A stretch of DNA of 64,000 nt from Paludibacteraceae bacterium. GTDB taxonomy: Bacteria; Bacteroidota; Bacteroidia; Bacteroidales; Paludibacteraceae. The notes beneath the pieces are model-generated. The model was not told the origin of the DNA. It worked only from the letters and a program-made list of their open reading frames with translations, and searched no databases. Every line of letters starts with the position of its first letter. Positions within the stretch are counted from its first letter, which is position 1. Position numbers and translations under genes: made by a program. The DNA is taken from positions 1-64,000 of the forward strand of contig JAFSMP010000026.1 of the NCBI GenBank assembly GCA_017447875.1. Reading direction: 5' to 3'. Below are positions 25,181-63,539 of this stretch, in pieces.

Positions 25181-28100
25181 ATAAGTGACTTAGAGATACT
25201 GTTCGGTCAACATCCGGAGATCAACCTGATCCACCGGGAGTTGGGCAAAGGGAAGGGCATGCACCTTCTCTTAGCCGGTTTGCACGCGAGCGCGCGTGCG
25301 CTTACGCTTACGCATATTAAGGAGAGGCTGTTCGTGGTAATGGACAATGCCGAAGCGGCGCAGTATCTGTACGGAGATTTACGATCGTTAGGAGCGGATG
25401 CTCTGTTCTTCACCAGCAGCAAGCGCAGACGCAGTATCGATGATGCGGCGGTGATACAACGCACGGAGACCTTGACGACCATGCCGCGTATCATCGTGAC
25501 CTACCCCGAGGCGATTGCAGAACCGGTTCCGGCGAAGGAGGAGTTGTCTGCTGTCAGTTTTCAGTTGTCAACAGGACAAGAGATCCAGCAGACCCAACTT
25601 GGTCAGCAACTTTCCGAACTCGGATTTGAGCGTGTGGATTTTGTGTTCCAGCCCGGTCAGTACGCCGTACGAGGCAGCATCGTGGATATCTACAGTTACA
25701 GTCACGACCTACCCTACCGTCTGGATTTCTTCGGCGATGAGATAGAGAGTATCCGGGAGTTTGATATCGAAGATCAGTTGTCGAAGAACCGAGTCGATTC
25801 TGCCGATATCGTCGGTTCTTCAGTCGAAAGTCAAAAGTCAAAAGTCGAAAGCTATATACCAGAGTATCTGAGTGAGGAGACGGTGTGGGTGAGCAATGAT
25901 TGGAGCGTGGTGCGGTTTAAGTTTGATGGTCTGAATAATCCGAGTATTCTGAATAATCTGAATAATCGAAGATCTATCGAGTTTGGGGAGAAGAGTACGT
26001 TTGCGACGCATAGTAAGATTGCATTCGACATCGTACCGCAGCCGCTCTTCCATAAGCAGTTCGATATTCTGACGGATGACTTGAAACGGCATATCGACGA
26101 GGGATATAAGATTTATATTTTAGCGGAACAGCAAAAGCAGTTGGACCGCTTGAAAGCAATCTTCGATGAGACCGTTGACACTGACAGACCGTTAACACTG
26201 ACAGACCGTTCCACTGACAGACCGGCTTCGCCTGTAAGATTCATCGGCATCAACAGTACGCTGCATGAGGGATTTGTGGATAAGGGGTTGAAGATTTGCT
26301 GCTATACGGACCATCAAATCTTTGAGCGATACCATCGTGTGACGATGAGCAGTGAGAATGCCCGAAGGGGTAAGGCGATTATTACCTTGCGGGAGATCAA
26401 CCAGTTGCAGATCGGCGACTACGTGGTACACAGCGATCACGGAATAGCGAAGTTCGGTGGTCTGGTGACGACACCGGTGAACGGCAAACCGCAGGAGATG
26501 ATCAAGTTGAACTACCGCGACGGAGCGAATGTGTTTGTGAGTATCCATAACTTACACCGCATCAGCAAATACAAGGGTCGTGAGGGTTCGGAACCGGCAA
26601 TTGCCCGTTTGGGATCGGGAGCATGGGAACGACTGAAAGAGCGCGCCAAGGAGAAGGTAAAGGACATCGCACGGGACTTGATACGACTCTATGCGACCCG
26701 CAAGCAACAGAAGGGCTTTGCTTATTCTCCGGACGGGTACATGCAGCATGAGTTGGAAGCATCGTTCCTGTACGAAGATACACCGGATCAGGCGAAGGCG
26801 ACCGCCGACATCAAACGCGACTTGGAGAGTCCGATGCCTATGGACCGATTGGTTTGCGGTGACGTAGGATTTGGTAAGACCGAAGTAGCGATGCGAGCTG
26901 CGTTTAAGGTGGCAACCGACGGTAAGCAGGTAGCGGTGCTCGTGCCGACAACCGTTTTGGCACTGCAACACTATAACACCTTCAAGGAGCGCATGAAGAA
27001 CCTGCCGGTGCGGATCGAATACCTGAGTCGTTTGAAGAGTGCGAAAGAGATCAAAGAACTGCTGGCGGACCTGGAGACGGGTAAGATCGATATCCTCATC
27101 GGTACGCATAAGTTGATCGGGAAGAGCGTGAAGTGGCATGACTTGGGACTGCTGATCATCGACGAGGAACAGAAGTTCGGTGTGGCAGCCAAAGAGAAGT
27201 TGAAGAGTCTGAGAACGAATATTGACGTACTGACGCTGACGGCTACGCCTATCCCGAGAACCTTGCAGTTCTCACTGTTGGGGGCACGGGACTTGAGTGT
27301 GATGACTACTCCGCCGCCGAACAGGTATCCGGTGCAGACAGAGCTGATCACGGTGGATGACGAGGATATCATCAAAGAGGCGATCGAACTGGAGTTGGAG
27401 CGCAACGGACAGGTGTTCATCGTCAATAACCGCATTGAGATGTTACCGCGTATCGAGCATAAGATACACCAACTATGTCCTGAAGCACGAATCGTGACCG
27501 CACACGGACAGATGCAAGCGGGTGAGATGGAAGAGAAGTTGGAAGCGTTCATCAATTATGACTACGACATCTTGCTGGCGACCACGATCATCGAGTCCGG
27601 AGTGGATATACCGAACGTGAATACGATATTAATCTTCAGTGCGAACAAATACGGTTTGGCGGACTTGCATCAGTTACGCGGTCGTGTAGGACGCAGTAAC
27701 CGGAAGGCATACTGTTACCTGATCGCACCGGAGAAAGAGTTACTGACCGAAGATGCAAGAAGGCGTCTGGAGGCATTGGGCACGTTTGCCGAGTTGGGTG
27801 CAGGCTTTAACCTGGCGATGCAGGACCTGGATATCCGCGGAGCGGGCAACATGTTAGGAAGCGAACAGAGTGGATTTATTGCCGACCTGGGTTACGAGAC
27901 CTATCAGCGGATCTTGAATGAGGCGGTGGAGGAACTGAAAGAGGAAATGAGTTTAGGGGACGCTTCGCTACAGGACGGCGCAGAGCGCCTACAGGACGCT
28001 AAAACTACAGGACATCTATGGTGTAATGATTCGCAGTTAGAGACGGATTTGCCGATCAGTTTTCCTACCGATTATATCGAGAACATATCCGAGCGAATCA

Positions 28101-28516
28101 CCTTGTACCGCGAGTTGGACAGCCTGCATAGCGAAGAGCAATTGGTGGACTACAAGAAACGCCTTATTGACCGCTTCGGTCCCCTACCCGAACCGGCGGA
28201 AGAACTGCTGAGTGTGGTGCGGTTAAGATGGCTCTGTTGTCGGATGGGCATTGAGAAGATATTGCTGAAAGGAGAGAGGATGACGATGTATCTGGTGCAG
28301 CACAAAGATGCGTACTGGCAGTCGGAGCAGTTCGGTAATATGATTCAGTATGCCGTGACGCGACCGGAACGATGCTCTCTGCACGAAGAGAAAGACAAGA
28401 AAGGCATCCCGACCGGCAGACGGTATGTGACGATCACGAATGTGAAAACAATAGCTGGTGCAATAACGTTGCTCTCGAAAATCGAGCGCAACGAGTTGAA
28501 AGTTGAAAGTTTATAG
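25181..28516 (+). CDS. mfd: Transcription-repair coupling factor Mfd
   Basis: The helicase-like translocase that removes stalled RNA polymerase and recruits UvrA. Order: UvrB-like N-terminal part, CarD-like RNA-polymerase-interaction domain (GDYVVHSDHGIAKFGGLV), RecG-like ATPase with GDVGFGKTEVAMRAAF, IIDEEQKFGV and LTATPIPRTLQ, then helicase domain 2 (GRVGRSNRKAYCYL) and a TRCF C-terminal domain. Homology begins at ISDLEILFGQHPEINLIHRE, upstream of the first canonical start codon (TTG 25241); the frame there has no ATG, GTG or TTG. An AAGGA nine bases before ATA 25181 suggests an AUA start, making 1111 residues. At least five in-frame repeat cassettes interrupt the protein at about residues 121-132, 214-224, 251-264, 331-353 and 926-945. 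Confidence 0.93.
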   Translation: MSDLEILFGQHPEINLIHRELGKGKGMHLLLAGLHASARALTLTHIKERLFVVMDNAEAAQYLYGDLRSLGADALFFTSSKRRRSIDDAAVIQRTETLTTMPRIIVTYPEAIAEPVPAKEELSAVSFQLSTGQEIQQTQLGQQLSELGFERVDFVFQPGQYAVRGSIVDIYSYSHDLPYRLDFFGDEIESIREFDIEDQLSKNRVDSADIVGSSVESQKSKVESYIPEYLSEETVWVSNDWSVVRFKFDGLNNPSILNNLNNRRSIEFGEKSTFATHSKIAFDIVPQPLFHKQFDILTDDLKRHIDEGYKIYILAEQQKQLDRLKAIFDETVDTDRPLTLTDRSTDRPASPVRFIGINSTLHEGFVDKGLKICCYTDHQIFERYHRVTMSSENARRGKAIITLREINQLQIGDYVVHSDHGIAKFGGLVTTPVNGKPQEMIKLNYRDGANVFVSIHNLHRISKYKGREGSEPAIARLGSGAWERLKERAKEKVKDIARDLIRLYATRKQQKGFAYSPDGYMQHELEASFLYEDTPDQAKATADIKRDLESPMPMDRLVCGDVGFGKTEVAMRAAFKVATDGKQVAVLVPTTVLALQHYNTFKERMKNLPVRIEYLSRLKSAKEIKELLADLETGKIDILIGTHKLIGKSVKWHDLGLLIIDEEQKFGVAAKEKLKSLRTNIDVLTLTATPIPRTLQFSLLGARDLSVMTTPPPNRYPVQTELITVDDEDIIKEAIELELERNGQVFIVNNRIEMLPRIEHKIHQLCPEARIVTAHGQMQAGEMEEKLEAFINYDYDILLATTIIESGVDIPNVNTILIFSANKYGLADLHQLRGRVGRSNRKAYCYLIAPEKELLTEDARRRLEALGTFAELGAGFNLAMQDLDIRGAGNMLGSEQSGFIADLGYETYQRILNEAVEELKEEMSLGDASLQDGAERLQDAKTTGHLWCNDSQLETDLPISFPTDYIENISERITLYRELDSLHSEEQLVDYKKRLIDRFGPLPEPAEELLSVVRLRWLCCRMGIEKILLKGERMTMYLVQHKDAYWQSEQFGNMIQYAVTRPERCSLHEEKDKKGIPTGRRYVTITNVKTIAGAITLLSKIERNELKVESL
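25543..25575. repeat. In-frame repeat cassette 1 in mfd
   Basis: GTTGTCTGCTGTCAGTTTTC followed by AGTTGTC, imperfect repeats coding ELSAVSFQLST. Confidence 0.5.
25821..25851. repeat. In-frame repeat cassette 2 in mfd
   Basis: GTCGAAAGTCAAAAGTC type tandem repeats coding VESQKSKVES. Confidence 0.65.
25931..25970. repeat. In-frame repeat cassette 3 in mfd
   Basis: CTGAATAATC repeated three times, with CGAGTATT, coding LNNPSILNNLNN. It is the same family as 60477-60518 and 62986-63028. Confidence 0.65.
26172..26238. repeat. In-frame TGACAGACCG cassette in mfd
   Basis: Three copies of CTGACAGACCG separated by 6-7 bases, then GGCTTCGCCTG. They code DTDRPLTLTDRSTDRPASP between conserved parts of the N-terminal region. 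The same elements occur in rlmN and mnmA. Confidence 0.8.
27957..28013. repeat. In-frame CTACAGGACG cassette in mfd
   Basis: Three copies of CTACAGGAC with variable spacers (CGCTTCG and GCAGAGCGC) coding DASLQDGAERLQDAKTTGH. It is related to the cassette at 63299-63365. Confidence 0.65.
28495..28512. repeat. GTTGAAAG repeat at the mfd-kdsB junction
   Basis: GTTGAAAGTTGAAAGTTT encodes the last residues of Mfd (ELKVESL). The same family occurs at 29267-29293 and 42197-42233. Confidence 0.6.
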
Positions 28517-28519
28517 AAT

Positions 28520-29269
28520 ATGAAATTTATTGGAATCATCCCCGCTCGGTACGCCTCGACGCGTTTTCCGGGCAAGCCATTAGCCGAGATATGCGGTAAG
28601 ACCGTTATCCGTCGTGTCTATGAGCAGGCGAGCAAAGCCTTGGACACGGTGGTTGTAGCGACTGACGACGAGCGTATCTACGATGCGGTAGAAGCGTTTG
28701 GCGGTAAGATAGTGATGACCCGTGCGGACCATAAATGCGGTACGGATCGTTGTCTGGAGGCCTATCAGGCGATCACCACGCCTTCGTGGCGCGAACAGAA
28801 CGATAAAGAGACGGTGGTTATTAATATACAAGGCGATGAGCCCTTCATCCAGCCCGAACAGATAGAGGCACTGATGAAGTGTTTTGACCAAGAAGATACG
28901 GATATCGCGACCCTCGTTCGGCCTTATACCGACAAGGACAGTAAAGAAGCACTGGAGAACGTCAATACACCTAAGGTTCAATGGGACAAGACGACCTGCG
29001 TAGCGCAGATGTTCAGCCGGAAGGTTATCGCTTGTGCGGACGGCAGTCATTACCGTCATATCGGCATCTATGCCTATCGTGCAGATGTGCTGGCTAAGAT
29101 CACGCAACTGCCGCAGAGTCCGCTGGAGATAGCCGAGCGTTTGGAGCAGTTACGCTGGTTAGAGAACGGATACCGTATTCGTGTAGGCGTCACCGATACG
29201 CAGACGATCGGTATTGACACTCCGGAGGATCTGGAGCACGCTATTGAATGGTACAAGTATAATGGTTGA
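28520..29269 (+). CDS. kdsB: CMP-KDO synthetase (3-deoxy-manno-octulosonate cytidylyltransferase)
   Basis: A 249-residue cytoplasmic enzyme that activates KDO with CTP for lipopolysaccharide core synthesis. It shows the nucleotide-binding start IIPARYASTRFPGKPLAEI, the conserved INIQGDEPFI and the C-terminal GIDTPEDLEHA. Length is normal. It starts 3 bases after mfd, and GTTGAAAGTTGAAAGTTT repeats form the end of mfd just upstream. It shares a lipid A/LPS theme with lpxK and msbA elsewhere in the window. Confidence 0.97.
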   Translation: MKFIGIIPARYASTRFPGKPLAEICGKTVIRRVYEQASKALDTVVVATDDERIYDAVEAFGGKIVMTRADHKCGTDRCLEAYQAITTPSWREQNDKETVVINIQGDEPFIQPEQIEALMKCFDQEDTDIATLVRPYTDKDSKEALENVNTPKVQWDKTTCVAQMFSRKVIACADGSHYRHIGIYAYRADVLAKITQLPQSPLEIAERLEQLRWLENGYRIRVGVTDTQTIGIDTPEDLEHAIEWYKYNG

Positions 29270-29293
29270 AAGTTTAAAGTTGAAAGATAATAT
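29267..29293. repeat. GTTGAAAGTTTAAAG repeat after kdsB
   Basis: GGTTGAAAGTTTAAAGTTGA plus AAGATA begins at the kdsB stop codon and fills most of the gap before deoD. Confidence 0.6.
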
Positions 29294-29317
29294 ATTAACC
29301 TCAAAAAAACACAAATT

Positions 29318-30031
29318 ATGGCAAAAGGAAATTGCCCGACTCCGCACAATGGTGCGCAGTACGGAGAAATTGCAAAGACAGTAATCATGGCGGGTGACCC
29401 GTTACGCGCCAAGTTGATGGCAGAGCGTTATTTGGAGAACCCGAAGTTAGTGAACCAGGTACGTAATATGTTCGCTTATACCGGTACGTACAAAGGTAAA
29501 GAAGTGACCGTCATGGGTCATGGTATGGGTATTCCGTCGATCGGAATCTACACCTATGAGTTGTATAATTTCTACGATGTAGAGACGATCATTCGCGTAG
29601 GATCGTGCGGTGCTCGTCAGCACTATGTACAACTCGGCGACATCGTGATCGCCTTAGGCAGTTGCACGGAGAGTAACTATGCTGATCAGTTCGATCTGCA
29701 AGGAAACTTCGCTCCGATCGCAGATTTCTATCTGGCACGTAAGGCCGTAGAAGCTTGTGAGAAATTCGGATACCGTCACCATATCGGTAATGTCTATTCG
29801 GCAGATGTCTTCTATTCCGAAGATCCGCGTAAGGCGAACTGGACGAAGATGGGCGTGTTGGCAGACGAGATGGAAGCTCCGGCATTGTATCTGAATGCAG
29901 CGCGTGCAGGCAAGAAAGCACTGGTGATCTGCACTGTCAGCGATCATATCCTGACCGGTGAAGCCACGACAGCTGAACAACGTCAGAACTCGTTCACCAA
30001 CATGATGGACGTAGCCTTTGATATTATTTGA
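29318..30031 (+). CDS. deoD: Purine-nucleoside phosphorylase
   Basis: A 237-residue trimeric/hexameric phosphorylase of the PNP-UDP family that splits purine nucleosides into base and (deoxy)ribose-1-phosphate. Motifs: GDPLRAK (phosphate site), VMGHGMGIPSIGIYTYEL, RVGSCGA and VSDHILTGE with the catalytic Asp. The usual nucleoside-contact motif MEAAALY reads MEAPALYLN here. It could use nucleosides released by the 5'-nucleotidase at 14581-16137. Its stop overlaps the next start by one base. Confidence 0.95.
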   Translation: MAKGNCPTPHNGAQYGEIAKTVIMAGDPLRAKLMAERYLENPKLVNQVRNMFAYTGTYKGKEVTVMGHGMGIPSIGIYTYELYNFYDVETIIRVGSCGARQHYVQLGDIVIALGSCTESNYADQFDLQGNFAPIADFYLARKAVEACEKFGYRHHIGNVYSADVFYSEDPRKANWTKMGVLADEMEAPALYLNAARAGKKALVICTVSDHILTGEATTAEQRQNSFTNMMDVAFDII

Positions 30032-30879: not shown

Positions 30880-30889
30880 GATAGAATAA

Positions 30890-33199: not shown

Positions 33200-33212
33200 A
33201 ATATATAAATTA

Positions 33213-33308: not shown

Positions 33309-33335
33309 AATTGTATTGTTTTTTAAAATCCGATG

Positions 33336-33366: not shown

Positions 33367-33372
33367 CTAATT

Positions 33373-33466: not shown

Positions 33467-33486
33467 ATCAAAGAAAGGGACAAAAT

Positions 33487-34278: not shown

Positions 34279-35409
34279 GGCATTGACGAGCATGCCGCAG
34301 GCGGCAAGGATGTCTTCTCCACGGGAACGGCGGATGGTGGTAGTAAGACCATTAGCGGTGAGGTAGTCACGGAGCCAAAGCATAGATTGTTCGTTGGAGG
34401 GTTTGAAAAGGTTTGAGGTTGTTTGAGGTTGTTTGAGATCGTTTGACGTTGGACGTTTGACGTCTTCCACTCCTTCATGAAAACGAATGAGGTTGATGCG
34501 GCAGTTGAGTCCTTTGAGCAGGCGGAGGAGTTCCTTGGCATGACGAGGCGTGTCGTTCTGTCCGGCCCAACAGATATACTCGAAACTGACGCGACGTTGG
34601 TGCGACCAATCGTACTGCTTGAGAAGGGCAACCACATCAGTGATGGACATAAGTTTTTCGGCAGGCATGATCTCTGCCCGTTCTGCAGGGAAGGGATTAT
34701 GCATAGAAACCGCCAGGTGACACTCACTCTCATCGAGAAATCGCTTCATAGCAGGGATACCTACCGTAGAGACGGTGATACGCTTGGGTGACCAAGCGCA
34801 AGCGTACGGAGCGGTCATGATCTCCAAGGCACGGAGGACATTGTCGAGATTATCCATCGGTTCGCCTTCTCCCATAAAGACAATATTTGTCAGACCGGCT
34901 TCGCCTGACAGACCGCTTTCGCTGACAGACCGTTTTACTGACAGACCGTCCTTCGGACTGACAGACATTCCAAAAAAGATCTGATTCAATATATCCGCTG
35001 CGGAGAGATGACCGTGAAAACCGAGGGTACCTGTCATGCAGAAACGACAGCCCATCTTACAGCCGGCTTGCGTGGAGACGCAAAGAGTCGCTCTGTCTTC
35101 TTCCGGAATATATACCGACTCCACGAATTGCTCACCAACCTCAAAGAGGTACTTCCGTGTACCATCGACACTGACGGCTTCGCGGACAGGGGCATGACGA
35201 CCGATGGTATAGTTGGCTTTGAGCGCCTCACGTCCTTTGAGAGAGATATTGGTCATCTGGTCAAAAGACGTGACGCGGCGCACATATAACCATTCGGCAA
35301 GCTGCTTGCCTGCGAACTTCTGCAAGCCGACCGCCAAAGCGACCTCTTGCAATTCCGAAAGCGTCTTGCCAAGCAAGACATTGGTCATTTGTAATGGGTC
35401 ATTTGTCAT
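34261..35409 (-). CDS. rlmN: 23S rRNA A2503 / tRNA A37 C2-methyltransferase RlmN
   Basis: A 382-residue radical-SAM methyltransferase. The cluster motif is CKMGCRFC (Cys 117, 121, 124), followed by NIVFMGEGEPMDNLDN; the C-terminal catalytic Cys is in GEDILAACGML. Start ATG 35409 overlaps the mscS stop (ATGA); ATG 35388 is an alternative, because the first codons lie in a TCATTTGTCATTGG repeat. Two repeat cassettes interrupt the protein in frame: residues about 149-174, just after the first conserved region, and about 315-337 near the C-terminus. It is the last gene of the ten-gene fumarase operon. Confidence 0.95.
   Translation of the reverse strand: MTNDPLQMTNVLLGKTLSELQEVALAVGLQKFAGKQLAEWLYVRRVTSFDQMTNISLKGREALKANYTIGRHAPVREAVSVDGTRKYLFEVGEQFVESVYIPEEDRATLCVSTQAGCKMGCRFCMTGTLGFHGHLSAADILNQIFFGMSVSPKDGLSVKRSVSESGLSGEAGLTNIVFMGEGEPMDNLDNVLRALEIMTAPYACAWSPKRITVSTVGIPAMKRFLDESECHLAVSMHNPFPAERAEIMPAEKLMSITDVVALLKQYDWSHQRRVSFEYICWAGQNDTPRHAKELLRLLKGLNCRINLIRFHEGVEDVKRPTSNDLKQPQTTSNLFKPSNEQSMLWLRDYLTANGLTTTIRRSRGEDILAACGMLVNALQQPA
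34399..34466. repeat. In-frame GTTTGAGGTT cassette in rlmN
   Basis: GTTTGAGGTT and variants (GTTTGAAAAG, GTTTGAGATC, GTTTGACGTT) repeat about six times. They code the low-complexity stretch VKRPTSNDLKQPQTTSNLFK. Confidence 0.7.
34888..34967. repeat. In-frame TGACAGACCG cassette in rlmN
   Basis: Five copies of TG(A/T)CAGAC spaced 16-20 bp, separated by GGCTTCGCC, CTTTCGC, TTTTAC and GTCCTTCGGAC. Two spacers can form mini-hairpins with a TTC or TTCG loop. It codes about 26 residues that ordinary RlmN proteins lack. Confidence 0.8.
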
Positions 35410-35413
35410 TGGT
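35379..35413. repeat. TCATTTG repeat at the mscS-rlmN junction
   Basis: TTGGTCATTTGTAATGGGTC followed by ATTTGTCATTGG spans the rlmN start and mscS stop. The ATG start codons of rlmN lie within it. Confidence 0.55.
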
Positions 35414-46094: not shown

Positions 46095-46811
46095 TTATAG
46101 GCTTTCTGCAAAGGCTTCTGCCTCTTCGATTTGGTCGATTTTTCCGACATCCACCATGCGATAGTCTTGCGGAATATATGCCTTTAATGGAGCCTGATGC
46201 ATTACCTGCAAATAGAAATCAATGAGGGAGAATTTTTCTTGGTTCATCTGCGGTAAGAGAGCAAGAACCTCGGGACGAAGAATCTGCATGCCGGAGAAGG
46301 CAAGATGCCGACCGTCGCGTCCTTTGAGTTCGCCGGTCTTGATATTGGTCCAGCCGCAGAGCCTGTCTGTTTCGTCGAAACAGAGATAACGCTGCGTTTG
46401 ACGGTCACTGACAACTAGTAAACTGGTCGGACTAGCATATCTATCAACCATCTCCCGTATATCGATGTTACTTAAGATATCGACGTTACAAGCGAGGATG
46501 GGCTCATTTTTAATTTTTAATTTTTCATTTAAAATTTTTTTGAGTCCTCCTCCGGTGTCGAGCAGTTGATCCCTCTCATCGGAGATCGTGATATTGCATC
46601 CCCAGCCGTTATTGGCACGGACGGTATCGATGATCATGTCGGGGAAATGGTGCACATTGACGATGATATCGGTGATACCGGCATCACGCAGTTTCTCCAC
46701 TTGCCATTGTAGGAGCGGTTTTCCAGCAAGAGGCACCAAGGCCTTAGGCATTGTGTCCGTAAGGGGTTTGAGACGCGTACCGAGACCTGCCGCAAAGATC
46801 ATTCCAACCAT
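46095..46811 (-). CDS. murU: Sugar-phosphate nucleotidyltransferase, MurU-like
   Basis: A 238-residue nucleotidyltransferase with the signature MIFAAGLGTRLKPLTDTMPK and the metal Asp in ACNVDIL. In the known recycling route MurU turns MurNAc-1-phosphate and UTP into UDP-MurNAc. It lies in the AmgK-RapZ-C-MurU order, which supports this role. Residues about 90-103 (ILNEKLKIKNEP) come from an A/T-rich in-frame repeat that replaces the usual sequence before the NVD motif. Start ATG 46811 overlaps the upstream gene by 13 bases; ATG 46802 (ATGA overlap) is the alternative. Confidence 0.85.
   Translation of the reverse strand: MVGMIFAAGLGTRLKPLTDTMPKALVPLAGKPLLQWQVEKLRDAGITDIIVNVHHFPDMIIDTVRANNGWGCNITISDERDQLLDTGGGLKKILNEKLKIKNEPILACNVDILSNIDIREMVDRYASPTSLLVVSDRQTQRYLCFDETDRLCGWTNIKTGELKGRDGRHLAFSGMQILRPEVLALLPQMNQEKFSLIDFYLQVMHQAPLKAYIPQDYRMVDVGKIDQIEEAEAFAESL
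46504..46542. repeat. In-frame TTTTTAATTTTTAA cassette in murU
   Basis: Tandem TTTTTAA or TTTTTCA units code LKKILNEKLKIKNEP on the minus strand. Related to 63226-63259. Confidence 0.65.
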
Positions 46812-47203
46812 CTGTCGATCCCCCTTTCCCGATGAATCAGATGAATACGAACGTTATATTTCTCCTTGAGATGCTTGGCCAGATGTTCGGCACAATAGAC
46901 CGATCGGTGCTGCCCACCGGTGCAACCGAAGGACACTTGGAGGTTGGTGAAATCCCGTTCGATATAGCGCTCTACATGATGGTCCACCAAGGCATAAACC
47001 GACTCCAGGAAGGTCAGTATCTCACCGTCATTTTCAAGGAAGTCAATGACCGGTTGGTCCAGACCCGTCATGGCCTTATACGCGTCGTATCTACCCGGAT
47101 TATGGGTGGAACGGCAGTCGAAGACGTACCCGCCTCCATTACCGGATTCATCAGCCGGAAGAGCGCGTTTAAACGAGAAGGAGTAGATCGTTACTGAGAG
47201 CAT
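46799..47203 (-). CDS. RapZ C-terminal domain protein
   Basis: A 134-residue protein equal to the C-terminal domain of RapZ, with GGYVFDCRSTHNPGRYDAY, LVDHHVERYIERDF and the anion-binding SFGCTGGQHRSVYCAEHLA. The N-terminal P-loop kinase domain of full RapZ is absent. In many Bacteroidota this domain is fused to the C-terminus of an AmgK-like kinase; here it starts in another frame 35 bases before the kinase stop, so either the genes are separate or a frameshift split them. It may sense an amino-sugar nucleotide; its role here is unknown. Confidence 0.85.
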   Translation of the reverse strand: MLSVTIYSFSFKRALPADESGNGGGYVFDCRSTHNPGRYDAYKAMTGLDQPVIDFLENDGEILTFLESVYALVDHHVERYIERDFTNLQVSFGCTGGQHRSVYCAEHLAKHLKEKYNVRIHLIHRERGIDRWLE

Positions 47204-48086
47204 ACAAATAAGGATAGTCGTCTTTTAAGGGTTGAAGTATATCATTCAAGTTGCGCAGGGCGAGAGGTATCGACTCGAGGAAATGCTGTTTGCGTTCGTA
47301 ATACCCTCTGTAACCGTACGCACCGAGCACCTGCAAAGTTCTAAATAATACGAAATGCGGTAATGCGGTCTTCCATTCCGTAGCCCGTAACCCGTAACCC
47401 GTAACCGCTAACTCATCCAGATACGCCTCGATGAGTTGCTCGCGGAGCGCAGGAGCAAAGTTGGCTTTGGCTTGCCAAAGGAAAGACGCTACATCATACT
47501 GCGTAGGACCACGACGACCGCCTTGGAAGTCGATGAAGTACGGTTGACCGTCTTTGATCATCACGTTACGGCTCTGGAAATCGCGGTAGAGGAAAGTGTT
47601 AGAGGTGAGACCGCATGCGCTGTGAGAAGTGAGATGTGAGACAAGAGCGTCAAACTCATCTTCGAGTTGGGGTTCGGAGAACTCGATCTTGGTGCCCTTC
47701 AAGAAGCAGTACTTGAAGTAATTGAGGTCCCAACGGATAGACCGTTCGTCCATCGCCGGTACCGGAAAACAGATCGACCAATCGAAGTTCTGTGCGCCTT
47801 TTACCTGCACGTGCGCGAGTGCGCGTATCGTGCGTTCTAATAAGGTATAATCGTCCAGATGATCAAATAAAATCGTGTCACCCAAGTCCTCCTGCGTATA
47901 ACTCATCTCATCCTCACTCACCCAATACAGTTCGGGCACAGGAAGACCCAGCGCATGAAAATGCCGCGCCATATAGATGAACGCACGGTTCTCATCGCGG
48001 TTGGTTCCTACGACGCGAATGATCGAGCGACCGTTCTCGTCCGTCTCCCGGGTATAGATTCTATTGGAGCCTTGTTGTTTTAGCAT
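47169..48086 (-). CDS. amgK: Aminoglycoside-phosphotransferase-like sugar kinase, AmgK type
   Basis: A 305-residue kinase of the APH fold. The catalytic loop is FLYRDFQSRNVMI and the metal-binding motif is YFIDFQGGRRGPTQYDVASF. Next to MurU and RapZ-C it is best read as the anomeric kinase for MurNAc/GlcNAc in peptidoglycan recycling. Two in-frame repeat stretches are present: about residues 148-160 (SHLTSHSACGLTS) and 225-236 (VTGYGLRATEW). The last codons overlap the next gene by 35 bases. It overlaps the preceding kinase gene by 7 bases. Confidence 0.85.
   Translation of the reverse strand: MLKQQGSNRIYTRETDENGRSIIRVVGTNRDENRAFIYMARHFHALGLPVPELYWVSEDEMSYTQEDLGDTILFDHLDDYTLLERTIRALAHVQVKGAQNFDWSICFPVPAMDERSIRWDLNYFKYCFLKGTKIEFSEPQLEDEFDALVSHLTSHSACGLTSNTFLYRDFQSRNVMIKDGQPYFIDFQGGRRGPTQYDVASFLWQAKANFAPALREQLIEAYLDELAVTGYGLRATEWKTALPHFVLFRTLQVLGAYGYRGYYERKQHFLESIPLALRNLNDILQPLKDDYPYLYALSNDLLLLV
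47379..47412. repeat. In-frame CCCGTAA cassette in the AmgK-like gene
   Basis: CCCGTAACCCGTAACCCGTA plus ACCGCTAAC, four tandem 7-bp units coding LAVTGYGLRAT. Confidence 0.7.
47606..47643. repeat. In-frame TGTGAGA cassette in the AmgK-like gene
   Basis: GTGAGACC, TGTGAGAAG, TGAGATG and TGAGAC units code VSHLTSHSACGLT. Confidence 0.55.
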
Positions 48087-52270: not shown

Positions 52271-53365
52271 CTAAATGATGATTCCACCGCCGACCACGAG
52301 GTCGTCGCAATAGATGACGACCGACTGACCGGGAGTGACACCCCAGACGGGGGACGCAAATTCCAAGCGTCCCTCGTCTATCTTTTTGACGGGAACGGCT
52401 TGACTGCGATAGCGCACTTTGGCAGTAAGACCGGCTTCGCCTGATAGACCGTTACACTGACAGACCGTTTCACTGATAGACCGTTTCACTGTCAGACGGA
52501 AATGCAACTCCGTGGTGAAGAGGTCGTCGTTGGAACCGAGGGTGATGCGGTTGGTGGCGGCATCGATATGGGTGACATACGCCGGATGACCGAGGGCGAT
52601 ACCGAGACCCTTGCGTTGACCGATGGTGTAGTTGACGAAGCCTTCGTGATGACCAAGCACCTTGCCTTCCGCATCGACATACTCCCCTGCGCGCACGCGT
52701 TCCTCATAATCAGGCACGTTCGCGCGTAAGAAAGAACGGTAGTCATCGTTGGGAATGAAGCATATCTCCTGACTCTCGCGTTTCTGTGCAAGGGACTCAT
52801 ACCCGTGTTGGCGAGCGATGTCCCGCACCTGGTCTTTGGTCAGGTCTCCCAACGGGAAGATCGTACGACGTAACTGCTCTTCGGTCAGCATCCAGAGGAA
52901 ATAGGTCTGGTCCTTTTTGGTGTCGGCAGCGGTGCGCAGATACACATGTCCGTCCCGCTCGGCGATACGCGCATAATGACCGGTTGCGATATAGTCGCAT
53001 CCTAACTCATCTGCCACACGCATCAGTTCGCCCCATTTGATATGACTGTTGCATAGCACGCAGGGATTGGGCGTACGACCGGACATGTATTCATCGATGA
53101 AATTCTGAATGACGCATTGCTTGAAGGTGTCGCGGAAATCGACGATATGATGCTCGAAGCCCATCCGCTCCGCATTATGCTTCGCTTCCATGATGGACTC
53201 GATAGAGCAACAGCCTTTCTCTTTGGCAATACACGACTCCTTGATACTGTCGAACGTGCGGAACGTGACACCGACCACTTCGTAGCCTTGCTCCAAAAGC
53301 AGCATCGCACTCACCGTAGAGTCAATGCCGCCCGACATTCCCAAAAGAACCTTACCATTTACCAT
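52271..53365 (-). CDS. mnmA: tRNA-specific 2-thiouridylase MnmA
   Basis: A 364-residue enzyme that adds sulfur to U34 of Lys, Glu and Gln tRNAs. The PP-loop is MSGGIDSTVSAMLL; catalytic Cys residues are in RTPNPCVLCN and SQEICFIPND. A repeat cassette inserts RSISETVCQCNGLSGEAGLT between LHFRLTVK and KVRYRSQ in the C-terminal barrel. The first residues (MVNGK) come from the ACCATTTACC repeat that also ends the cotH gene. Last gene of the tamL operon. Confidence 0.95.
   Translation of the reverse strand: MVNGKVLLGMSGGIDSTVSAMLLLEQGYEVVGVTFRTFDSIKESCIAKEKGCCSIESIMEAKHNAERMGFEHHIVDFRDTFKQCVIQNFIDEYMSGRTPNPCVLCNSHIKWGELMRVADELGCDYIATGHYARIAERDGHVYLRTAADTKKDQTYFLWMLTEEQLRRTIFPLGDLTKDQVRDIARQHGYESLAQKRESQEICFIPNDDYRSFLRANVPDYEERVRAGEYVDAEGKVLGHHEGFVNYTIGQRKGLGIALGHPAYVTHIDAATNRITLGSNDDLFTTELHFRLTVKRSISETVCQCNGLSGEAGLTAKVRYRSQAVPVKKIDEGRLEFASPVWGVTPGQSVVIYCDDLVVGGGIII
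52421..52497. repeat. In-frame TGACAGACCG cassette in mnmA
   Basis: GACCGGCTTCGCCTGATAGA then three 16-bp units TGACAGACCGTTTCAC with small changes. It codes about 22 extra residues. Confidence 0.8.
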
Positions 53366-53387
53366 TTACCATGTACCATTTACCAAT
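53347..53387. repeat. ACCATTTACC repeat at the cotH-mnmA junction
   Basis: Four tandem ACCATTTACC-like units. They supply the last residues and stop of the CotH protein (VNGTW) and the ATG and first residues of MnmA (MVNGK). Confidence 0.7.
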
Positions 53388-55132: not shown

Positions 55133-55155
55133 ATGTAATCTATGTTTTTTCACCC

Positions 55156-57021: not shown

Positions 57022-57028
57022 ATAATGG

Positions 57029-57060
57029 TGATTGGTTATTGGTGATTGGTGATTGCTAAT
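57029..57060. repeat. ATTGGTGATTGG repeat at the lpxK-msbA junction
   Basis: TGATTGGTTATTGGTGATTG then GTGATTGC fills the 14-base gap and the end of lpxK. It codes its last residues (AITNHQ). Confidence 0.6.
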
Positions 57061-58070
57061 TTTCTGGTGTTCTCTGATACATAATTCAGTATAAACCGGT
57101 CAAAATCCTCGTGGGGCGTGCAGAAACGCATGCGGATGGGGAGGGTGATGAGGGGTTTGGATTGCTGCGCCAGTTGTTGCTCCAGGTCGGTTTGCTGCAG
57201 GCGCTGCATATCTTTGACGGTAGTGAGCACAAAATCAAAATGCTTAGCCTGCTGCACGATCTGCTCTATCTCTTGCGGCGTAAAGGTATGATGATCGGGG
57301 AAGGAGATCATCTGCGCATGCGTGTAGTGCGACTGGATATGAGTCAAGAGATACTGGGGTTGCGCGATACCGCATACGACGAGCGGTGTACCTTCCTGCT
57401 CTATCGGTGCATACTCGATGCCGGCAAAATGCAGATGCTGGTAAGTAGGCAGATGGAGCCGGTTATCCACCACGCGCATGTCGATCGGCCGGATGGTATC
57501 CGGACACTTGGTAACCACTATCGCATCCGCTTTGAGTGCTCGTGACGGCAGATCCCGCAGTCGCCCCCAAGGTAACATATGATCGTCTATATAGAGGTTA
57601 TCATAGGCGGTGAGCAGGACGGTATAGCCGCAACGGATCGCACGATGCTGCATCGCGTCATCGAGTACGACCACATCGAGATCCTTGACCTGCCGCTGCA
57701 ATTGACGAACCCCTCGTACGCGGTTCTCGCACACGGCGACAGGCACGTCCGGGAAAGCCCGATGTACCTGCATGGGTTCATCTCCGATGGTCTGCACCGA
57801 AGCATGAGCGTCCGCCATGACGAAACCGTGCGTCTTGCGTTTGTAGCCACGTGAGAGCACCGCAGGACGATAACCATGCGCCAAGAGCAGCCGCAGGAGG
57901 TACTCCACCATCGGCGTCTTACCCGTTCCACCCACTGCGAGGTTACCCACACAGATCGTCGGTACGTCCAGGGTGTGCGTGACCAGCAGATGCTTGTCGA
58001 ACAGGAAATGGCGGATACGTACGATAAGGGCGTAGAGCCAACTCAATGGGATGAAGAGCGCGTTGCGCAT
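57036..58070 (-). CDS. lpxK: Tetraacyldisaccharide 4'-kinase LpxK
   Basis: A 344-residue inner-membrane-bound kinase that adds the 4'-phosphate to the lipid A precursor. The P-loop region is VGNLAVGGTGKTPMVEYLL; the N-terminus has a hydrophobic anchor (FIPLSWLYALIVRIRHFLF). DDAMQHRAIRC is conserved. It lies between sppA and msbA. Confidence 0.95.
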   Translation of the reverse strand: MRNALFIPLSWLYALIVRIRHFLFDKHLLVTHTLDVPTICVGNLAVGGTGKTPMVEYLLRLLLAHGYRPAVLSRGYKRKTHGFVMADAHASVQTIGDEPMQVHRAFPDVPVAVCENRVRGVRQLQRQVKDLDVVVLDDAMQHRAIRCGYTVLLTAYDNLYIDDHMLPWGRLRDLPSRALKADAIVVTKCPDTIRPIDMRVVDNRLHLPTYQHLHFAGIEYAPIEQEGTPLVVCGIAQPQYLLTHIQSHYTHAQMISFPDHHTFTPQEIEQIVQQAKHFDFVLTTVKDMQRLQQTDLEQQLAQQSKPLITLPIRMRFCTPHEDFDRFILNYVSENTRKLAITNHQ

Positions 58071-58096
58071 TGGTAATTGGTGATTGGTTATTGGAT
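58068..58096. repeat. ATTGGTGATTGG repeat at the sppA-lpxK junction
   Basis: CATTGGTAATTGGTGATTGG then TTATTGGATC links the end of sppA to the start codon of lpxK. Same family as 57029-57060. Confidence 0.6.
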
Positions 58097-59860: not shown

Positions 59861-59864
59861 ATCT

Positions 59865-60476
59865 TTATAGTTTTAAATTAAACGTCATCCTATGATAGGG
59901 TGTCGGGCCGTACTGCTTGAGCGCCGCATAATGTTCGGCTGTCGGATAACCTTTGTTGGTGTCCCAACCGTACTGCGGGTACTCGTCATGCAGTCGCAGC
60001 ATGTAATCATCCCGGTAGGTCTTCGCCAGCACACTCGCTGCCGCAATCGACATGTAGGTTGCATCGCCATGCACCACGGTGTGCGCCGGTATCTCTAACA
60101 GTGCTCCTTCCGGCACGTAGGGTTTCCATTTATTGCCGTCCACAAGGATATGTTGCGGTCGGACGCTCAGTTGGTCCAATGCCCGCTGCATGCCTATGAT
60201 GGAGCATTGCAGGATGTTCCGTTGGTCTATCTCCTGTGCCGTCACCTCGGCCACTGCCCAACTGACGGCTTCGCGCTCGATGACCGGCCGTAAGGCGTAA
60301 CGCTGTTTGTCGGTCAGTTGCTTGGAGTCATTGAGCCATGCGAACTCAGGCACCCGCCCTACCCGCTCCGGATCCAGTATCACGGCTGCGCAGAACACCG
60401 ATCCTGCTAACGGTCCTCGTCCCGCCTCATCGCAACCGGCTTCTAAGAGGCCTGATATCATGTATGGTTTTAACAT
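59865..60476 (-). CDS. rnhB: Ribonuclease HII
   Basis: A 203-residue RNase HII that removes ribonucleotides from DNA. It begins MLKPYMISGLLEAGCDEAGR with the catalytic DEAGRGPLAG; further acidic residues are in LVDGNKW and GDATYMSIAAASVLAKTYRD. Start ATG 60476 gives the usual N-terminus. Confidence 0.96.
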   Translation of the reverse strand: MLKPYMISGLLEAGCDEAGRGPLAGSVFCAAVILDPERVGRVPEFAWLNDSKQLTDKQRYALRPVIEREAVSWAVAEVTAQEIDQRNILQCSIIGMQRALDQLSVRPQHILVDGNKWKPYVPEGALLEIPAHTVVHGDATYMSIAAASVLAKTYRDDYMLRLHDEYPQYGWDTNKGYPTAEHYAALKQYGPTPYHRMTFNLKL

Positions 60477-60518
60477 TCTGAGTACTCGGATTATTCGGAT
60501 TATTCGGATTACTCAGAA
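60477..60518. repeat. GGATTATTC repeats at the tamL-rnhB junction
   Basis: TCTGAGTACTCGGATTATTC followed by GGATTATTCGGATTACTCAG: four tandem 9-bp units in the gap between tamL and rnhB. The ends pair (CTGAGTA and TACTCAG), so a hairpin is also possible. Same family as 62986-63028. Confidence 0.75.
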
Positions 60519-62675
60519 CGGGTATCCTATTGCGAAATGGAAGGTCATATCGTCTTTCCATCCCAAGCCGTTCGAGGCGGTGCGCCATTGTTTGCCTTCG
60601 AGGGTGCGCCCCGGGTCAAACAGTTTGACACCGAAGTCCACACGGAAGATGAGGATATTGAGGTCAAAACGGATACCGGCTCCGTAACTCCATGCGATCT
60701 GTTTGTAGAACTCATCGAACTTAAACACTCCGCCGGGTTGGGTGAGATAATTATCGATGGTCCATATGTTGCCCGCATCAGTGAAGGCTGCCAGTTCGAG
60801 GAACTTAAGCACTTTAAACCGATACTCGAGGTTCGCATCGAGATGGATATCTCCGGCCTGCAGGTCATACACTATGGATGCTCCGTTACCCTTGAAGGTA
60901 CCCGGACCGAGCGTACGGGCCTGCCATCCGCGGTTACCGTTCGCACCACCACCGAAGTAACGTTTCTGGAACGGTACACTGGTGGAGTTGAGGTACGGCA
61001 CGATGACACCTGCCCCGATATGCGTCACGATCTGGTGCTTGGGGTTAATGACGCCATGGTAAGCGAAGTTAAAATCCGCCTTGGCGTACTGCGCAAACGG
61101 GATCTTCCATAGCAGATACGAGCCCTGCTCGTTCTTCGAGAACCCGCACCATTTGCTGAGCAGGTAGAGGAAGTTACCGGCGGTCTCGAACTTCATTGCC
61201 AGTTGCACATACGAGCGCTCCGGATGACGGGGATTGTAGTTGGAATAGGAACAGGTATAACTCCAATCGACGATGAACTGGTCTTCATAACTGGACTTGA
61301 GTACCGATGACTTCTCCAGAAAATCCGTTCGGAACCTCTCGGATATCCACGGCAGGTAGATATAGTTGATATCGACGAGGTTGAACTGGTGAGTCCACCG
61401 ACTGCCGGGTTTGCGAGGGATGAGATAGCCCAAGGTAGCATTCGCCATGGTTCGGGTGTACTCATCGGGTCGCTGCTGGTAGTTATAACCGATACTGACC
61501 TTCACGTTCGACGCAAAGAGCAGTCCGGCTTCAGCCTTTCCTTCTATCGCCCTACTGCCGTTCGCCCTCCATTCATACGAGGCACGAGCACCGACGGTGA
61601 GCAGTTCGGCTCCGCGGAAGATATTCTTATTGCTGTAGTTGAGTCCCGCCGCTATACCCCAATTGCCGGCACTGTAGGTTCCTTCCAATTCCGCCGAGAT
61701 CGAGTTGAGTCGACCGCGCGAAAGGGCGATCGTACAATCGAGCAGCGAGTCACCCGCAGGAGTGAACGCGATATCCACATATTTCACAGGCGGGAGGGCG
61801 TTCATGCGCGCGTACGTACGCTCGACACGCCATTCCGCATAGCGGTCTCCGTCCCGCAGACGACTCGCATGACGCAAAGCATTACGACGCAAGAAATTAT
61901 GATCCTGCGTATAATTCACATTTCGGATAAAATACTGGGTATGCAGCCGCGCCAGTTGTGCCGAGTCCATCTCCTCGACAAAGGGTGCCAAGTGAATACG
62001 GACATCCACCTCGTGGCTGTTGAGAGAACTGTCGGCAGTGAACTCCAGCATCGACTTCTCGAAATAGAAATACCCCCTGTTACGAACGGCCGAAGCGATA
62101 CGCGTACGCTCTTCATCGAGGGTCTCGGTGGAGAACTGATCGCCTTCTTTGATCTTACACCGCACGCGGTCTTGCGCCACAGCGCGTAGCTCATCCACCG
62201 GTATATCCACTTCGTAGTTACGTATCGTGTAGGGCTGGTGAGCGGTCACGAGGTAGGTCAGACGCACTTTGCGTTTCTTATACACCTTCTGCGTATCCAC
62301 CTCGGCATGGAAATAACCCATGTTATTCATCTGCTGCTTGAGCTGCAACATACTGATCTTGGTCAACTCCTCGTCATACACCACCGGTGCCTCACCCATC
62401 TTATGCGCATTACGCGCCAGACGCTTGTTCGACTTGGTGGTTGTGTCCCGCGGGGCCGTGTTGTAGATGTCCAGTTGCAGTTTCCAGAAACCCATGATCT
62501 CCGTGTTCTGCTTCTGCCTCAGATAAGCGCGCAAGGTATTCGTGGACACTTTCTTATCATCCACACACTTGACGTTCGCCTTGTCCAACAGATACTCACC
62601 TTGCGGCACGAATTTCGTCGTGTTGCAGGAACAGAATAGGACTGCCAAAAGCCATATGTACGCCTTATTGCGCAT
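60513..62675 (-). CDS. tamL: BamA/TamA-family outer-membrane lipoprotein TamL
   Basis: A 720-residue Omp85-family protein with lipobox LFCSC near residue 17, so it is lipidated as TamL of Bacteroidota is. POTRA-like domains cover about 25-320, then a 16-strand barrel with the surface-antigen motif YFGGGANGNRGWQARTLGPG (VRGF/Y-like) and the end FHFAIGYPF. It would form the outer-membrane part of the TamB-TamL system for envelope assembly; TamB is not in the window. First gene of the operon down to mnmA. Confidence 0.93.
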   Translation of the reverse strand: MRNKAYIWLLAVLFCSCNTTKFVPQGEYLLDKANVKCVDDKKVSTNTLRAYLRQKQNTEIMGFWKLQLDIYNTAPRDTTTKSNKRLARNAHKMGEAPVVYDEELTKISMLQLKQQMNNMGYFHAEVDTQKVYKKRKVRLTYLVTAHQPYTIRNYEVDIPVDELRAVAQDRVRCKIKEGDQFSTETLDEERTRIASAVRNRGYFYFEKSMLEFTADSSLNSHEVDVRIHLAPFVEEMDSAQLARLHTQYFIRNVNYTQDHNFLRRNALRHASRLRDGDRYAEWRVERTYARMNALPPVKYVDIAFTPAGDSLLDCTIALSRGRLNSISAELEGTYSAGNWGIAAGLNYSNKNIFRGAELLTVGARASYEWRANGSRAIEGKAEAGLLFASNVKVSIGYNYQQRPDEYTRTMANATLGYLIPRKPGSRWTHQFNLVDINYIYLPWISERFRTDFLEKSSVLKSSYEDQFIVDWSYTCSYSNYNPRHPERSYVQLAMKFETAGNFLYLLSKWCGFSKNEQGSYLLWKIPFAQYAKADFNFAYHGVINPKHQIVTHIGAGVIVPYLNSTSVPFQKRYFGGGANGNRGWQARTLGPGTFKGNGASIVYDLQAGDIHLDANLEYRFKVLKFLELAAFTDAGNIWTIDNYLTQPGGVFKFDEFYKQIAWSYGAGIRFDLNILIFRVDFGVKLFDPGRTLEGKQWRTASNGLGWKDDMTFHFAIGYPF

Positions 62676-62685
62676 AATTATCGTG

Positions 62686-62717
62686 CAAAATTACAACTTT
62701 TTTTGCATATATGCAAA
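62686..62717 (-). promoter_or_regulatory. Promoter of the tamL operon (shares its -33 palindrome)
   Basis: The minus strand has -7 TAATTTTG (62686-62693) and -33 TTTG (62714-62717), spacer 20 nt. The -33 box is one half of the palindrome TTTGCATATATGCAAA at 62702-62717. Confidence 0.85.
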
Positions 62718-62733
62718 TTTTTTCGTAACTTTG
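62702..62733 (+). promoter_or_regulatory. Promoter of the SpoU gene (shares its -33 palindrome)
   Basis: -33 TTTG (62702-62705) and -7 TAACTTTG (62726-62733), spacer 20 nt. It uses the other half of the same palindrome as the tamL promoter. Confidence 0.85.
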
Positions 62734-62753
62734 TGCCCGATTTCGGTATTATT

Positions 62754-63539
62754 ATGGAAAAAATCACGAAAGCACAGGTCAAACTTGTAAAAAGTTTGCA
62801 GCAAAAAAAGTTCCGTGACGAACTCGGACTTTTTGTTGCTGAAGGCGAGAAATGCGTAGAAGAGTTACGCAAATCGTTTGAGCTGGTTCATCTCTATCGC
62901 GAAGGCGAGAATGCCTCCCGTACGGAGATCGAGCAGATGAGCGGTTTACGGACTCCGCAAGGCGTCATCGGCGTCTTCAAGAAATCCGAGTATTCCGAGT
63001 ACTCCGATTATTCCGAATACTCCGGTCTTATCCTTGCGTTGGATGGGATTCAGGATCCGGGAAATTTGGGCACTATTATCCGCACCTGTGATTGGTTCGG
63101 AGTTCACGATATCGTCTGCTCGTTGGACACGGCAGACTGCTATAATCCCAAGGTGGTGCAAGCAACGATGGGAGCACTTGCGAGAGTACGCGTTCACTAT
63201 GTGGACCTGCCGAAATGGCTCAAGGAATTAAAAATTCAAAAATCAAAATTAAAAATTTTCGGGACACTATTAGACGGCCGCGATATGTATGACGTCTTAC
63301 AGTCCGAAGGACGGTCTTGCAGCGACAGCGGTCTTACAGGCGAAGCCGGTCTTACAGCGAAGCGATCTATTGTTGTCATGGGTAACGAGGGCAACGGTAT
63401 TTCGCAAGCCGTTCGCTCTCTTGTCACCCACCCGATTCGGATACCTTCTTATCCAAAAAACGCTGAGACTTCGGAAAGCCTCAACGTTTCTATTGCAACC
63501 GCGATCGTTCTCGCGGAATTTAGAAGACTAGGAAACTAG
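62754..63539 (+). CDS. SpoU/TrmH-family RNA 2'-O-methyltransferase
   Basis: A 261-residue knotted (SPOUT) methyltransferase for rRNA or tRNA ribose. An N-terminal substrate-binding domain ([20 protein letters not shown]) precedes the SpoU core with [44 protein letters not shown] and [14 protein letters not shown]. Three in-frame repeat cassettes interrupt it: about residues 78-92 ([14 protein letters not shown]), 158-169 ([12 protein letters not shown]) and 183-204 ([20 protein letters not shown]). Its stop overlaps the convergent thrS stop. The exact RNA target is not known. Confidence 0.9.
62986..63028. repeat. In-frame GATTATTCCGA cassette in the SpoU gene
   Basis: Five 9-bp units of the form GAGTATTCC or GATTATTCC code [14 protein letters not shown]. 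Same family as 60477-60518. Confidence 0.75.
63226..63259. repeat. In-frame AAAATTCAAAAATC cassette in the SpoU gene
   Basis: A-rich 7-9 bp repeats code [11 protein letters not shown]. Related to 46504-46542. Confidence 0.65.
63299..63365. repeat. In-frame GGTCTTACAG cassette in the SpoU gene
   Basis: CGGTCTTGCAG, CGGTCTTACAG and CGGTCTTACAG with spacers CGACAG, GCGAAGC and CGAAGC. GTCCGAAGGAC and AGGCGAAGCC resemble, on the opposite strand, the spacers of the TGACAGACCG family. Confidence 0.7.

Follow-up and report, generated by a model that had tools for sequence, protein, structure and literature searches.

The stretch of DNA analysed here, referred to as the window, covers the first 64 kb of a contig of 132 kb from a Paludibacteraceae genome of 2.25 Mb, which is 77% complete and distributed over 70 contigs. 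Short tandem arrays lie inside many of its genes and at their junctions, and in the open reading frames (ORFs) for Mfd, RlmN, MnmA, a SpoU methyltransferase, MurU-like, AmgK-like and TrmN-like proteins and a DcuA/DcuB-family protein they leave the frame intact. This had been proposed in an earlier, sequence-only reading, whose gene families agree with our identification of the named genes; it placed the arrays between 25543 and 63365, a range that leaves out the TrmN-like gene (17227-17925) and the DcuA/DcuB-family gene (605-1987). We consider these cassettes to be, probably, small dispersed elements of a Paludibacteraceae genus, similar to Rickettsia palindromic elements (RPEs) and repetitive extragenic palindromic (REP) sequences, and subject to a selection filter. 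Judged by Mfd, the nearest named relatives are metagenome genomes labelled Paludibacteraceae or uncultured Bacteroidales, with rumen or hindgut samples frequent among them. The arrays of the window are given below, where a loop denotes a segment known from sequence alignments alone.

1252 to 1301, minus strand: 8/24-bp array inside the DcuA/DcuB-family gene.
17333 to 17369, plus strand: 8-bp array in the TrmN-like gene, share of residues in indel segments 0.46; relatives differ at this loop.
17810 to 17840, plus strand: 8-bp palindromic array (TCGAGATC) in the TrmN-like gene.
25542 to 25570, plus strand: heptamer-like array in Mfd, in a length-conserved segment (indel share 0.00) that aligns without a gap to a solved relative.
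25822 to 25851, plus strand: heptamer array (AGTCAAA) in Mfd loop 2, where relatives hold other families.
25930 to 25967, plus strand: 9-bp array (TCTGAATAA/TCCGAGTAT) in Mfd loop 3.
26169 to 26239, minus strand: string of four mini-hairpins with GGTCT cores in Mfd loop 4.
27959 to 28013, plus strand: hairpin string with a CTACAGGAC core in Mfd loop 5.
28494 to 28511, plus strand: heptamer array (AGTTGAA) extending the Mfd C terminus.
29265 to 29286, plus strand: heptamer array (GTTGAAA) at the 3' end of the CTP-transferase gene.
34411 to 34463, minus strand: 10-bp (GTTTGAGGTT) plus 7-bp array in a C-terminal segment of RlmN.
34891 to 34966, minus strand: string of four unlike mini-hairpins with identical GGTCTGTCA cores in RlmN.
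35379 to 35413, minus strand: heptamer array (CATTGGT) at the MscS/RlmN junction.
46506 to 46539, minus strand: heptamer array in the MurU-like gene.
47378 to 47406, minus strand: heptamer array (CCGTAAC) in the AmgK-like gene.
52428 to 52497, minus strand: string of four mini-hairpins with GGTCT cores in MnmA; relatives have other filler.
53352 to 53385, minus strand: heptamer array (TTACCAT) across the junction of the MnmA start and its upstream region.
57026 to 57055, no strand: heptamer array (TGGTGAT) at the LpxK/ABC transporter junction.
58069 to 58094, no strand: heptamer array (ATTGGTA) at a gene junction.
60475 to 60511, no strand: 9-bp array (ATTCGGATT) at the RNase HII/Omp85 junction.
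62985 to 63024, plus strand: 9-bp odd-palindrome array (TCCGAGTAC) in the SpoU methyltransferase; relatives differ here.
63226 to 63257, plus strand: heptamer array (AATTAAA) in the SpoU methyltransferase, indel share 0.36, weak as an insertion.
63294 to 63368, plus strand: mini-hairpin string with GGTCT cores in the SpoU methyltransferase.

For 30 genes of the window we built ortholog alignments, from which orthologs shorter than 75% of the window protein were excluded. For the 18 interior coding arrays with a score of at least 40 and at least three orthologs, the mean share of residues in indel segments was 0.62. Positions drawn at random from these genes gave a mean of 0.14, and the highest value among 2000 draws was 0.37. 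At least half of the residues fell in indel segments in 13 of the 18, or in 12 of 17 without the array at 35379, which is included in this set and which we place at a gene junction. By these alignments, interior coding arrays lie mainly in length-variable segments. Occurrence of the same residues in distant relatives had been named as one finding that would speak against insertion; solved relatives of RlmN, MnmA, a TrmH-family protein and Mfd instead have gaps or unaligned stretches opposite the main RlmN, MnmA, SpoU and Mfd cassettes, that at 25542 excepted. Mfd had been described as interrupted five times. Four internal cassettes (25822, 25930, 26169 and about 27959) stand, together with the C-terminal array at 28494, but the array at 25542-25570 is not an insertion, since its segment is length-conserved and aligns to the solved relative without a gap. 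The array at 35379-35413, taken earlier for a cassette of RlmN, is located upstream of the RlmN homology.

Arrays were counted with Tandem Repeats Finder at a score of at least 36 in 344 kb of the window's own genome, and shuffles were first-order Markov. We observed 49.1 arrays per 100 kb, compared with 2.0 in the shuffles; six relatives had 46-77, and the far controls (52 loci of other Bacteroidia, 901 kb, out of 80 loci collected) had 27.8, their shuffles giving 8.1. The arrays are far above chance and are real. Period 7 and its multiples dominate, and period-7 arrays alone reached 15.1 per 100 kb in the own genome, 6.7-25 in the six relatives and 1.7 in the other Bacteroidia, so that the enrichment expected from the sequence-only reading is borne out in the part of the genome sampled (344 kb). 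A period-7 excess is missing from most loci of other Bacteroidia. Among loci whose Mfd is 64-82% identical, arrays of period 7/14/21 numbered 4.3 per 10 kb in L047 and 6.4 in L055, and were absent in L046, L059, L060 and L063. Heptamer-type arrays were also found inside mfd of the more distant relatives L116, L079 and L058, and the habit may therefore have more than one origin. In another relative (G034), a long array of 21-bp units, each made of three heptamers, reaches the contig end (L152:19770-20000). Loss of mismatch repair was considered as a cause of the arrays and ruled out, because MutS scored above cut-off in 24 of the 25 genus genomes searched, the sole exception being a genome that is 54% complete.

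The density of arrays differs sharply between coding and noncoding DNA. With a simple gene caller that assigned 86.5% of the sequence as coding, arrays of period 7/14/21 numbered 10.4 per 100 kb in coding and 77.7 in noncoding DNA, a difference of about 7.5-fold, where the noncoding counts include arrays spanning gene ends. The corresponding values were 9.4 and 71.3 for periods 8-13, and 6.4 and 47.5 for longer periods. Out of 67 arrays of period 7/14/21, called genes contained 31, another 22 were intergenic and 14 spanned a gene end. All three frames were open in 22 of 37 coding arrays read in the sense direction and in 10 of 37 read antisense, as compared with 27 of 92 intergenic strands; the mean number of open frames was 2.30 in sense, 1.38 in antisense and about 1.5 in intergenic arrays, random coding DNA giving 2.20 and 2.12. 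This bias is supporting evidence only, because gene calling already guarantees one open sense frame. Given this contrast of about 7.5-fold in density, purifying selection would be enough to account for preservation of the frame, which appears best explained in this way. An insertion mechanism restricted to in-frame events, which had been offered as one of two possibilities, is unnecessary.

The repeat units recur at unrelated places. We listed 35 different heptamer units, and those of 52 arrays formed 24 coincident pairs, as against 3.5 when their letters were shuffled (maximum 9 of 500) and 3.8 expected from random noncoding 7-mers (maximum 14). Units in common with the own genome made up 8 of 10 in G003, 7 of 12 in G034 and 6 of 15 in G015, against 0.2-1.8 after shuffling (range over all six genomes compared), a sharing between species that may include orthologous arrays. 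The heptamer arrays thus look dispersed, and not the result of local stutter alone.

Turnover between species was most apparent in the same loops of the same proteins. One loop of the SpoU methyltransferase holds SVSPKDGLSGVAGLGSVSPKDG in G002, HTICDFKFEIC in G015 and another sequence in the own genome, and relatives likewise have different sequences in the same loops of MnmA, RlmN and the TrmN-like protein. The five Mfd loops were compared in 30 genus members including the own genome, with loops shorter than 30 nt excluded (137 of 150 kept). Tandem structure was detected at P<=0.01, relative to conserved parts of the same gene, in 34 of 75 loops of the 16 closest species (own included) and in 5 of 62 loops of 14 more distant congeners. 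Across the 16 close species the loops hold many unrelated families and differ between most species; loop 5, for example, contains CTACAGGAC hairpins, AATGATG hairpins, a TTTAACAG hairpin string, several heptamer-like families or an element that we call E2. Such differences could also be produced by protein-level selection for hypervariable loops, for instance against phage or inhibitors. The genes that bear cassettes are mostly intracellular housekeeping enzymes, which counts against this idea, and the same repeat kinds are denser between genes; we consider it extremely improbable.

Two non-tandem elements of about 75-80 bp, E1 and E2, were found at different Mfd places. In G035 and G006, E1 occupies loop 2. 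G026 has it in loop 4, where it is read in a different frame, and L055 has it close to the 5' end of its Mfd match. E1 was counted in four genomes, a count made with the understanding that some named loci and genome handles are probably one genome (L048/G006, L049/G026). E2, with five copies in four genomes, occupies loops 4 and 5 of a single genome (L069) and loop 5 of three others. In a looser DNA search its halves were dispersed as REP-like hairpins in 12 of 41 genomes, with 13 matches in G007 and 11 in G022; one of the 12 (G038) belongs to another genus, and its matches are weak. Identical stretches were compared over 120 species pairs of Mfd, where the loops, taken with 12 codons on each side, make up about 20% of the columns. 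The five longest (80, 61, 60, 53 and 53 nt) were all in cassette loops, in pairs whose gene identity is 72-79%, which suggests that some cassettes arrived or were exchanged recently.

The arrays with 16-24-bp units have an architecture of their own, in which a GGTCT core alternates with mini-hairpins that are variable yet palindromic. A unit reads (G)TCT, a tail of usually four bases ending in A, a mini-hairpin G...C, and then GGTCT again. Matches to it numbered 79 against 9.8 in shuffles for 344 kb of the own genome, 48 against 9 for 400 kb of relatives, and 19 against 19 for the 901 kb of controls. In 1.17 Mb from eight genomes of the genus, spacers from GGTCTNNCA to the next GGTCT, limited to 5-16 nt and collected blind to palindromes, yielded 49 units; such core-to-core units were absent from the 901 kb of controls. 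The second and penultimate spacer bases were complementary in 94%, as compared with 38% after shuffling (maximum 61% of 2000), the pairs being C-G in 23, T-A in 16 and G-C in 7; for the third pair in the 14 longer spacers the values were 86% and 54% (maximum 93%), which is suggestive only. Hairpin loops were GNA or GNNA in 38 of the 49, and the commonest hairpins (GTGAAAC, GGCGAAGCC and GCGAAGC) all have a GAA loop. The genomes searched comprised the own genome with 36 congeners (37 of the genus) and 24 from other genera of the same order. One exact GGTCT unit class was present in 22 of the 37 and in none of the 24, and the reversed unit pattern gave no match in this set.

Hairpins next to each other in a string resembled one another no more than hairpins drawn at random from that genome (3 identical of 34 pairs, 3.9 expected). 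The tails of adjacent units, identical in 15 pairs against 7.8 at random (P=0.002), were more alike, so that units of one array are not fully independent. With a stricter core, hairpins were identical in 0 of 17 pairs (2.4 expected) and tails in 8 (7.8 expected). A fixed unit with linked tail and hairpin was rejected, as tail and hairpin class were unlinked on either side (P=0.27 for both). Since hairpins are unlike and tails alike, the hairpins appear to act as exchangeable parts on a core that the units of one array have partly in common. Three processes can each produce this pattern, namely joining in series at a regenerated GGTCT, exchange from one array to another and concerted mutation of hairpins; simple slippage cannot.

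Under local replication slippage, DNA loops of 7-20 nt would give rise to all arrays in place, and the arrays would then be kept, and would mutate, where the protein has a permissive loop. The tandem form, the dominance of period 7 and the likeness of adjacent tails agree with it, and it may still extend heptamer arrays, to which extent the earlier suggestion of slippage in permissive loops could be kept. It is not the whole source, because unit families are dispersed over unrelated loci and other species, neighbouring hairpins are unlike, and a non-tandem element is common to different Mfd places; the presence of MutS and the missing period-7 excess in most other Bacteroidia loci also argue against it. 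As a full account we find slippage distinctly unlikely. It might be combined with concerted mutation, arrays expanding in place while template switching copies one hairpin arm onto the other and the cores stay fixed. This version, which would yield alike tails beside hairpins that are unlike yet palindromic, has to face the long-stem hairpins GTCCGAAGGAC and GGCGAAGCC, found again in different arrays, and the dispersal of a full unit over 22 genomes, and we rate it as unlikely. The conserved core with its variable spacer and the enrichment in noncoding DNA would also suit a job at the DNA level, such as protein binding or chromosome organisation, with the loops merely carrying such sites. Core families at one locus vary by species, however, and no motif common to all families was seen by eye, which makes such a job highly improbable.

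We also looked at a candidate enzyme. The own genome encodes on contig 63 a RAYT-like (REP-associated tyrosine transposase) HUH protein of 371 aa (L137:496-1611), whose motifs DHIH, WE and YVKDNP include both the HUH motif and the YxxxNP tyrosine motif of the RAYT motif list, which was taken from the available part of PMC6006769. It scores 39.8 bits with NCBIfam REP_Tyr_transpos (cut-off 80) and 23.7 with Pfam Y1_Tnp (cut-off 23); across the genus the canonical Y1_Tnp model gave mostly weak matches. The RAYT-like family was detected in 26 of the 37 genus genomes (two weakly), with up to seven matches each, fragments included, and in 3 of the 24 others. Its members are about 330-460 aa long, with several copies per genome in many congeners and further ones on contigs 24 and 6 of the own genome. 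Hairpins with the same core were seen by eye on both sides of the RAYT-like gene in about 5 of 30 loci (L164, L165, L177, L185 and L186), some with changed stems. A 14-mer of L164, TTCGCTCAATGATG, is also present in Mfd cassettes of G002, G033 and G034, and the longer GCTTCGCTCAATGATG occurs at 13 places in 6 of the 37 genus genomes and in none of the 24 others. The RAYT-like protein is a candidate mover of at least some families. In L164 (relative G003), five tandem 77-bp units with TTCGCTCAATGATGAGCGAA stand upstream of the RAYT-like gene, with an extra hairpin at its 3' end, and GTCCGTAATGGTCGCGAGATGGTCGCG lies shortly downstream of the gene in both L163 and L164. A RAYT gene adjoining the GGTCT strings themselves was looked for in 30 loci and rejected.

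What we observed, namely recurrence at unrelated loci, turnover between species, palindromicity and the contrast between coding and noncoding DNA, is consistent with the reading of the cassettes as RPE/REP-like elements under selection. Numerous families of small dispersed repeats, largely palindromes or oligomers, would spread within and between the genomes of the genus, and would land widely across each. Selection would remove copies that break the frame, bring in-frame stops or hit folded parts, leaving the rest mainly in permissive segments, and segments that tolerate filler would be refilled by other families as species diverge. A hairpin array would combine a shared core (GGTCT plus tail) with mini-hairpins from a genome-wide vocabulary, and would not be a simple duplication in place. 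Movement may proceed via single-stranded hairpin DNA, and a RAYT-like HUH protein or a similar enzyme could move at least some families. A bolder form of this idea is a mobile system whose unit is one extraordinarily stable mini-hairpin, interchangeable hairpins being joined serially at a regenerated GGTCT, or at a different core in other species. Strings of unlike hairpins would then form in either orientation, both inside genes and in intergenic DNA, via single-stranded DNA and an HUH or other enzyme. Because TCTNNNN heptamers directly adjoin hairpins, heptamer arrays might then be hairpin-less products of the same machine. We hold this form to be rather doubtful.

Several observations weigh against the element reading, in addition to the likeness of adjacent tails. 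Some loci of distant Bacteroidia are also rich in arrays of period 7/14/21 (per 10 kb, L079 2.4, L109 2.7, L112 1.8 and L116 2.1), and heptamer sharing is weak or absent in G002 (3 of 13), G027 (1 of 4) and G026 (0 of 5). Three of the 18 coding arrays (32447, 56044 and 58612) lie wholly in length-conserved segments; two more, at 17333 and 63226, have less than half of their residues in indel segments, and for these five the earlier reading needs correction. Core-to-core units were missing from three of the eight genus samples. Exact E2 is rare, an exact pattern search having matched the two known copies only, and the longest identical stretch lay outside the Mfd loops in 112 of the 120 species pairs. 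No clean empty site or target duplication was seen by eye in the Mfd loops of relatives, an approach that was fruitless because relatives hold other filler. GGTCT units occurred in 0 of 30 RAYT-like loci (flanks of about 1.5 kb, 27 loci of the genus, all stems scanned), and the strings nearest to the contig 63 gene are about 2.1 and 2.8 kb past it, beyond another ORF. The association between RAYT-like genes and GGTCT units across genomes is loose (19 of 26 against 3 of 11, Fisher P=0.025 with relatedness ignored). Finally, the genomes are largely metagenome-assembled, and the comparison is one between species.

Two further features of the window were noted. The MurU-like gene, an ORF with a RapZ C-terminal domain and the AmgK-like gene adjoin each other (46095-48086), and a minus-strand open frame of 3078 aa spans 3941-13177.

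Comparison with known systems places the cassettes closest to two families of palindromes. In the parts of the sources available to us (PMC10969869, PMC3733652), Rickettsia palindromic elements are described as palindromic repeats of several families, inserted in frame into unrelated genes. The in-frame insertion within protein-coding genes is shared here, as are the several families, and the likeness drawn in the sequence-only reading is right as regards behaviour. Its contrast of tandem with palindromic repeats is not sharp, because many of the units are palindromic. The differences, drawn by description only, are that Rickettsia elements measure about 150 bp according to the same partial accounts, compared with units of 7-24 bp, strings of about 30-80 bp and the somewhat longer E1 and E2 here, where a single palindrome of about 100-150 bp was not found; that the families vary by species at the same loop; and that the host belongs to the Bacteroidales. 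The intragenic GTAG/CGTC REPs, in the available part of PMC3733652, are small tagged palindromes, many in repair and some in RNA-modification genes, with one at about the same site in two species. Shared with them are small dispersed palindromes with a fixed tag, the intragenic position and the presence of a RAYT-like HUH protein. In contrast to them, the core here is GGTCT, stems are mostly 2-5 bp, and mini-hairpins are set head to tail in one orientation; the GGTCT family has spacers of 7-14 nt in place of a GTAG/CGTC tag next to a palindrome of 20-40 bp, and other hairpins, not its units, flank some of the RAYT-like genes.

The heptamer arrays have counterparts too: cyanobacterial-type heptamer repeats, known as STRR (short tandemly repeated repetitive sequences), are likewise degenerate 7-bp tandem units dispersed over the genome. 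Heptamer arrays are reported, in the portions available of PMC4679880 and PMC4692102, from Cyanobacteria, Beggiatoaceae, some Bacteroidetes and Xanthomonas (TAACTGA, GGGAATC), mostly between genes or at gene ends. These accounts, as far as available, describe one unit each, whereas our 35 units, among which TAACTGA is not listed, form arrays also in the interior of housekeeping genes. The DNA mini-hairpin d(GCGAAGC), one of the commonest here, is extraordinarily stable and figures in the available part of PMC10527192 as a biophysical motif; among the matches listed, no title presents it as a mobile genomic unit. Palindromes inside coding genes are also described in nematomorph mitochondria, in the part of PMC6649704 available. 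For this family and phylum and more broadly, the matches listed contained no earlier account beyond PMC3733652 and the RPE papers. What we rate as new is that behaviour of the RPE/REP type is combined here with a unit that is much smaller and builds strings, with many families, and with loops that are used repeatedly over a genus.

For annotation, cassettes may depress family scores: RlmN, at 286.5, falls short of the cut-off of 290, MnmA being above its own. If the hairpin strings are built as proposed, they would represent a new route to tandem DNA from unlike units. On the element reading, nature would also have carried out insertion scans of enzymes such as Mfd, RlmN and MnmA, and the 37 genomes available for the genus would allow insertion, survival and loss to be compared loop by loop. 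If the reading is true, small selfish repeats would be reshaping the loops of essential enzymes in this genus at a rate visible between neighbouring species.

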